Assembly (NCBI GenBank): GCA_020346285.1
Contig: CP070780.1
Span: forward strand, 476,143-508,190
DNA: 32,048 nt
Direction of reading: 5' to 3'
Origin: Candidatus Omnitrophota bacterium
Lineage (GTDB): Bacteria > Omnitrophota > Gorgyraeia > JABMRN01 > RBG-13-46-9
The position numbers and the translations under genes are program-made. A model generated the notes under the pieces. It did not search any database. It worked only from the letters and a program-made list of their open reading frames with translations, and was not told the origin of the DNA. Below, in pieces: positions 161 through 462 of the stretch (its first letter is position 1; every line of letters starts with the position of its first letter).

Positions 161-180
161 GGGGAGGTTTAAACCTCCCC
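161..180. terminator. Perfect 20-bp palindrome, possible terminator
   Basis: GGGGAGG and CCTCCCC flank a TTTAAA centre, giving a GC-rich 7-bp stem that closes into a fully self-complementary 20-mer 22 bases after the stop of the upstream partial gene. Location and stem strength fit transcription termination. There is no clean T-run after it (TACTGCTAAAATTTT follows), so it may instead be a dispersed palindromic repeat. Confidence 0.35.
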
Positions 181-230
181 TACTGCTAAAATTTTCCAAT
201 GGGGACCCCTTTGAAGTTTTGCTTTTTCTT

Positions 231-401
231 ATGCAAAAGGAAGGACAGGAGTGCGCTGTTGCCTCCGCTTGCCGCTCGCAAAAGGATAGGCGCCTTTTGC
301 TCGCTGTGACAAAAATTGCTCATGGCCTAAATGGCGCCATTGTATTCGCAATTTTTGACAGTCGCTCCGGCAATCAGCGCACTCCTGTCCGCACTTCGCA
401 T
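231..401. repeat. Large nested inverted repeat, MITE/REP-like
   Basis: The arms at 243-258 (GGACAGGAGTGCGCTG) and 375-390 are perfect 16-bp reverse complements. The stem continues inward as TTGCC/GGCAA past one bulged T, giving 21 bp, and outward imperfectly to ATGC (231) and GCAT (401). Inside are two further hairpins: GCAAAAGG/CCTTTTGC (278-285 with 293-300) and CAAAAATTGC/GCAATTTTTG (310-319 with 348-357), the latter enclosing ATGGCGCCAT (331-340). TTGAAG occurs just outside both ends (211-216 and 407-412) and could be a target duplication, though six bases is weak evidence. The element has no coding capacity. It could be a non-autonomous mobile element, a REP-type repeat or a structured RNA. 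Confidence 0.55.
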
Positions 402-406
402 TTCGC

Positions 407-435
407 TTGAAGAAACCGCAAGCTTGTGGTATATT
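407..435 (+). promoter_or_regulatory. Sigma70-type promoter for the small basic ORF and Na/Pi genes
   Basis: TTGAAG (407-412) and TATATT (430-435) are separated by exactly 17 bases. Predicted initiation is near 442, followed by a purine-rich AGAGAAG ribosome site and the ATG at 463. The -35 hexamer is the right-hand copy of the TTGAAG that also flanks the inverted repeat. Confidence 0.5.
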
Positions 436-462
436 GTGTGCCGACAGCAAGAAAGAGAAGTT

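Follow-up and report, generated by a model that had tools for sequence, protein, structure and literature searches.

The long imperfect palindrome at positions 243–390 of the window (the whole stretch of 32,048 nucleotides analyzed here, from a Candidatus Omnitrophota genome) is one of the copies of a palindromic element that is non-coding, dispersed and, with its arms, ~150–190 bp long; this element is very probably mobile. With moderate confidence we assign it to a new family of palindromic elements that are mobile but non-autonomous and that would be selected as a folded single strand and moved in trans.

The window copy is 148 bp long. Its left outer arm (GGACAGGAGTGCGCTG, 243–258, + strand), 16 nt in length, is 100% complementary to the right outer arm (CAGCGCACTCCTGTCC, 375–390, + strand), and after these 16 perfect pairs the outer stem continues, behind an unpaired T374, with five more (259–263 with 369–373), to give ~21 pairs. 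The conserved core (259–373, + strand) consists of P1, P2, a pseudoknot and P3, and matches positions 1–133 of a covariance model with 130.9 bits. Hairpin P2 (278–300, + strand) is formed by 278–285 and 293–300, and hairpin P3 (304–361, + strand) by pairing of 304–307 with 358–361 and of 310–319 with 348–357. The pseudoknot has four pairs, between the P2 loop (289–292) and 335–338 inside P3, where the central GGCGCC (333–338) contains the partner of the loop. A small inner hairpin, P4, is found in longer copies and, according to the alignment, is lacking in the window copy. Folded alone, the segment 200–430 has a predicted energy of −90.6 kcal/mol (z = −3.83), equaled by none of 200 shuffles. 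Complementarity and folding thus agree with the first-pass annotation, in which a nested inverted repeat with a near-perfect terminal stem of ~21 bp and two inner hairpins was described. The window gave no match to Rfam at gathering score, and a known RNA family was set aside on this ground.

The repeat had been placed at 231–401, and a weak outer extension does exist, with ATGC at 231–234 pairing with GCAT at 398–401; however, we count the element as 243–390, because the sequence from 394 onwards is ancestral in G001, a relative of the same genus that is ~87–92% identical to the genome of the window (G000) over long stretches. Synteny with this relative (contig G001:C4) starts at window 394, and positions 394–440 (+ strand) constitute the ancestral promoter region of a downstream 45-aa ORF, outside the element. 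This region holds the right one of two TTGAAG hexamers (407–412), which is present in G001 without the element. The left one (211–216) is carried by a fragment of a second dispersed repeat (186–242, + strand) that abuts the left arm. The two boxes were therefore correctly noted on both sides, but they are unrelated, and the argument that an insertion supplied or duplicated a −35 box fails, because the right box occurs in element-free G001 and the left box belongs to another repeat; promoter duplication by insertion is ruled out by the same observation in G001. Apart from the core, the left-flank repeat has matches in its own genome (e.g., at 1293099, 752730 and 935740) and in G001:C29, and it also occurs within larger inverted repeats in L013 and L015. 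Upstream of the element the gene order differs from that of G001, and the synteny break (window 394 versus G001:C4 3957) is at most 4 bases away from the right arm. The element lies at a rearrangement boundary. Since synteny with G001 begins only at window 394, no empty site is demonstrable at the window locus. A perfect 20-bp palindrome, GGGGAGGTTTAAACCTCCCC, is located upstream of the element at window 161–180, with short matches there in G001.

The genome of the window is a single contig of 1,432,323 bases, in which window 201–420, used as DNA query, gave 30 matches, the query included and some of them to the left-flank repeat only. Near-full copies are located at 623.0, 837.7, 1432.1 and 400.1 kb, and the other matches are insert-split, partial or restricted to the left-flank repeat. 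The same search matched 13 of 59 genomes including its own, two of which (G025 and G041) through the left-flank repeat only. An exact 20-base pattern occurred in nine stretches of a named species collection, eight of them from MAGs of Candidatus Omnitrophota and the ninth from a Rubripirellula MAG; the latter match, without the rest of the core, is probably due to chance. A covariance model based on 26 cores, taken from nine genomes and modeled without the pseudoknot, detected the element in 26 of the 384 genomes of Omnitrophota, its own included, all 26 of them in its own class and distributed over eight families (87 match rows, under stricter filters by which weak matches were lost). Over 68 loci, the model gave 72 matches. 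Many carriers hold several to many copies per genome. A table of 67 copies from 29 genomes combines 58 of the 87 covariance rows with nine copies from G004, G007 and G055, and omits insert-split, partial and N-containing copies (e.g., L006–L012, L091–L094, L099 and L101–L103) as well as L120. The search of the genome and its relatives proposed at first pass has thus yielded many copies in the own genome and carriers in 26 of 384, and the structure is not a single copy without variation between relatives, since copies are dispersed and sites differ. In the open-licence PMC literature, no description of such a repeat in Omnitrophota was found. A search with blastn against plasmids and phages gave no match to the element, and viral contigs gave none to one exact two-ended pattern; spread by phage or plasmid was rejected on these results.

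Mobility is supported by comparison of relatives. At eight loci with both flanks syntenic, the core is missing from a relative, with no covariance-model match there. In the clean case, at 1345.7 kb of G000, the element, its arms and a nested insert (~295 bp) are present, and G001:C30 reads through with neither core nor arms. The other seven core-less sites are L002 in G001, L118, L144 and L145 in G038, and L146, L147 and L148 in G121. In genus g38, six loci of G076 have both flanks syntenic and the core absent in G038 or G121, the L144 site keeping a fragment. The check proposed at first pass, for an empty site in a relative, thus gives eight syntenic core-less loci, one of them clean. The comparison has no outgroup and does not separate gain from loss per locus, and MAG assemblies can break at repeats; spread is nevertheless the simpler reading, because some G000 copies are highly similar (99% over 69 bases) at different positions.

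The junctions of the single clean site fall within an A-rich tract, and a clear target-site duplication is not seen. The initial proposal of a non-autonomous mobile element stands as regards a dispersed non-coding repeat whose presence at syntenic sites varies among relatives, but lacks a clear duplication. This bears on the possibility of a classical MITE of a DDE transposase, with terminal inverted repeats, a short target duplication and an autonomous parent in some relative. The element is small, non-coding and dispersed, with long inverted arms, and it shares with MITEs both terminal inverted repeats and presence/absence differences of dispersed copies among relatives. However, no obvious end sequence common to the genomes was recognized by eye, unlike the ends read by a transposase, and the clean site gives no clear duplication; a classical MITE seems unlikely. 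REP/RAYT systems carry a GTAG or CGTC tag at one end of the repeat; judged by eye, several copies of family f30 end with GCCATCTGACG, i.e., CGTC on the other strand, which was not seen in other families.

What occupies the core-less sites has a bearing on the origin of the arms. At five of the six g38 sites, other palindromes were recognized by eye instead of the element; at the site corresponding to 623.0 kb of G000, G001 carries a different palindrome; and at that corresponding to 837.7 kb, its arms are similar but enclose a palindromic core that is different and larger. The core might insert into loops of existing palindromes (terminators or REPs), and the arms would belong to the target. 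The two different cores held by similar arms at 837.7 kb and its G001 counterpart would fit, as would the largely genome-specific arms, and some REP dimers are described as lying inside other palindromes (PMC3733652). Furthermore, the palindromes at three empty loci of G038 hold ACTTTGGG-like stretches that by eye are reminiscent of element arms. On the other hand, the clean empty site lacks the arms too, and an approximate search (≤3 edits) of nine empty stretches, with a single inner segment of the arm as query for each locus, gave no hit in four (L158, L163, L080 and L081), a remnant of the left arm in L164 and only isolated weak hits in the others. Insertion of the core into loops is conceivable but not probable. 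Where G076 has the element, G038 has a different long palindrome (GGGGACGTGT-ACTTTGGGACACTCC...) at L158, L160 and L164. A foldback family with arms resembling those of the element and a different core is seen in L013, L014 and L072 (770–990), and in G001 it occupies the site orthologous to that of one copy of the element.

The element itself receives inserts. The same second palindrome occupies one loop position in four G000 copies, and another palindrome lies inside the P4 loop of three G007 copies. The second palindromic repeat, of ~91 bp, is located at G000:C1 821311–821401, 137542–137632, 1345816–1345906, 841581–841667 and 1020082–1020159; the last of these is beside a short match to the 3' part of the core, and the other four are inside the core. 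The family helps to account for the nesting of intergenic palindromes seen in these genomes of Omnitrophota.

The shape of the element is kept while its letters change. In the alignment of 26 cores, 89.6% of the cells of 31 pairs are paired, compared with a shuffled mean of 76.5%, and 17 of the 31 pairs change on both sides, compared with a shuffled mean of 9.5; none of 500 shuffles reached either value. A weaker measure, the number of further pair types, gave 27 against 23.3 for the shuffles, a value reached by 15 of 500. Sliding the helix partners abolishes the signal in this alignment, with the qualification that the structure was derived from the same 26 sequences, which gives it an advantage over slid versions, and that cells and copies are related and not independent. 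Changes on both sides affect four of eight pairs in P2 (83.6% of cells paired), seven of 14 in P3 (87.9%) and three of four in the pseudoknot (96.2%). The first-pass annotation had taken a covarying fold to speak against a mobile element; such a fold is present, yet the element is also dispersed. Both having been found, covariation here accompanies dispersal.

Firm evidence for the pseudoknot is confined to the 26-core set, and the signal is weaker in distant groups. An alignment-free test in three such groups of 30, 26 and 12 copies gave mean own pairing scores of 12.57, 11.96 and 12.33; the corresponding means were 8.74, 8.75 and 9.96 after shuffling, and 10.96, 8.67 and 10.93 when the partner came from another family. 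Only 10, 7 and 1 copies, respectively, were above the shuffled 95th percentile. By eye, L124 and L142 have no evident pseudoknot partner, and alignment A3 has mostly gaps in the pseudoknot columns, which were left unused. The outer arms of the 67 copies differ from genome to genome and keep their complementarity: the own-arm score has a mean of 28.9 and a minimum of 16.0, compared with 15.2 for left and right arms taken from different genomes and 14.2 for shuffles. The cross-genome 95th percentile is exceeded by 53 of the 67 copies and not by the other 14.

Which nucleic acid is folded can be approached through the pairs themselves. In the core helices of the 72 aligned matches there are 1657 Watson–Crick, 12 G–T, 33 A–C and 159 other cells. 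As a control, seven cloverleaf-folding tRNAs out of 11 at the examined loci have nine G–U among 162 pairs (5.6%), a small set of predicted folds. Folded DNA is preferred over RNA because wobble pairs on the sense strand are rare. The A–C excess would favor the opposite strand, but the cells are not independent. Judged from these sequences, selection would act on a folded single strand that is more likely DNA than RNA; the alternative to folded DNA towards which we would lean is a process in which the two strands of a helix are rewritten jointly. Should the near-absence of wobble pairs hold, it would allow sequence alone to tell whether a fold is selected as DNA or as RNA.

A competitor on this point is a structured RNA, i.e., a 3'-UTR regulator or processing signal with a functional sense-strand fold and pseudoknot that was amplified incidentally. 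Beyond the covarying pseudoknot, it draws support from the position of the copies relative to genes. In 30 copies, an open frame of ≥120 codons terminates no more than 200 nt away on the element's 5' side only, and in five copies on its 3' side only (two-sided binomial p = 2e-5, relatedness ignored), a bias towards the sense strand of the upstream gene, with four copies having such a frame on both sides, 20 on neither, and eight of the 67 set aside as too near to contig or locus ends. Copies in sense orientation follow tRNA genes at 16–23 nt in L113 and twice in L114, and at 52 nt in L122, and the copies in L139 and L155 follow apparent 5S rRNA ends recognized by eye. Between one pair of neighboring genes, the element has the same orientation in two genera, with arms that are changed but complementary (L140/L151), and L034 and L121 have an upstream gene in common, read as dnaK; flanks were compared between genomes over up to 1.5 kb, and further single-flank matches were also listed. 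Against a structured RNA are the few G–U pairs on the sense strand given above, the absence of the core from a relative at eight syntenic loci, and two shared gene pairs that hold the element in opposite orientation (L148/L150 and L131/L133). We judge a structured RNA possible but improbable.

The location behind genes would also suit an ordinary, possibly bidirectional, transcription terminator, and some arms are terminator-like (e.g., in G003, G004 and G273). In 15 of the 67 copies, a run of at least four T is found 11–35 nt past the core on its 3' side, compared with 9.0 expected from shuffles; however, 52 of the 67 lack such a run, and a conserved multi-helix core with a pseudoknot is unnecessary for a terminator, which renders this explanation very unlikely.

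For the element as a mobile folded strand, we propose that the folded single DNA strand would be the unit under selection, and that it may be moved in trans by an enzyme reading shape more than sequence, e.g., a single-strand transposase of the Y1/RAYT type, with insertion chiefly downstream of genes; entry of further hairpins into the same unpaired loops would produce the nesting. The narrower suggestion that the element is a single-stranded-DNA hairpin substrate of a Y1-like enzyme is tentative. G000 has two Y1_Tnp (RAYT-like) genes, L056 (G000:C1 918832–919164) and L057 (G000:C1 1280090–1280335), both flanked by short palindromes of their own in REPtron-like units, and the covariance model found no element copy within 1.5 kb of either. 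Y1 genes are present in 28 of 29 element-bearing genomes, G317 having a copy and no Y1 match, and in 16 of 20 genomes without a model match (20 of 358 negatives), so that a link by co-occurrence was dropped as not discriminating. The search for a mobilizing gene, which covered Y1_Tnp genes, identified none. Still bolder, and in our opinion rather unlikely, is an undescribed class of mobile element whose identity would be the single-strand fold of hairpins and pseudoknot over the sequence, with helix strands rewritten jointly through hardly any wobble intermediates, either orientation between the same genes, arms shareable with unrelated cores as shell and cargo, and reading by an enzyme for which no action on folds of this kind is known so far.

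Among known systems, REPs are described as palindromic repeats of 20–40 bp (PMC3733652). The element resembles REP/BIME and REPIN sequences, moved by RAYT/Y1 enzymes, in being dispersed, extragenic, palindromic, hairpin-forming and non-autonomous, but has ~150–190 bp and several helices with a pseudoknot, against the 20–40 bp given there, and the palindromes next to the two RAYT-like genes in G000 are not copies of the element. The bcr repeats of the Bacillus cereus group are, according to PMC3446304, MITE-like, dispersed, often in UTRs and in some families of conserved secondary structure; going by this description the element is similar, being likewise dispersed, MITE-like and conserved in structure. 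Differences are the host phylum and the target duplication, which is made by bcr1 and is not shown for the element. ERIC, RUP, BOX and other MITE-like repeats are like the element in small size and inverted-repeat form, whereas the present family was found across genera by a model of shape and sequence. The terminal inverted repeats of the element differ from those of MITEs in that their sequence is not common to the genomes. Small palindromic repeats are well known, but it is unusual for a family to maintain a multi-helix fold and a pseudoknot in several genera despite changes in most of its arm letters. Integron attC sites were considered and set aside, the copies being dispersed and not arrayed. 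In the window, the element and the 45-aa ORF are followed at 607–2430 by genes for a Na+/Pi-cotransporter and a PhoU-domain protein.
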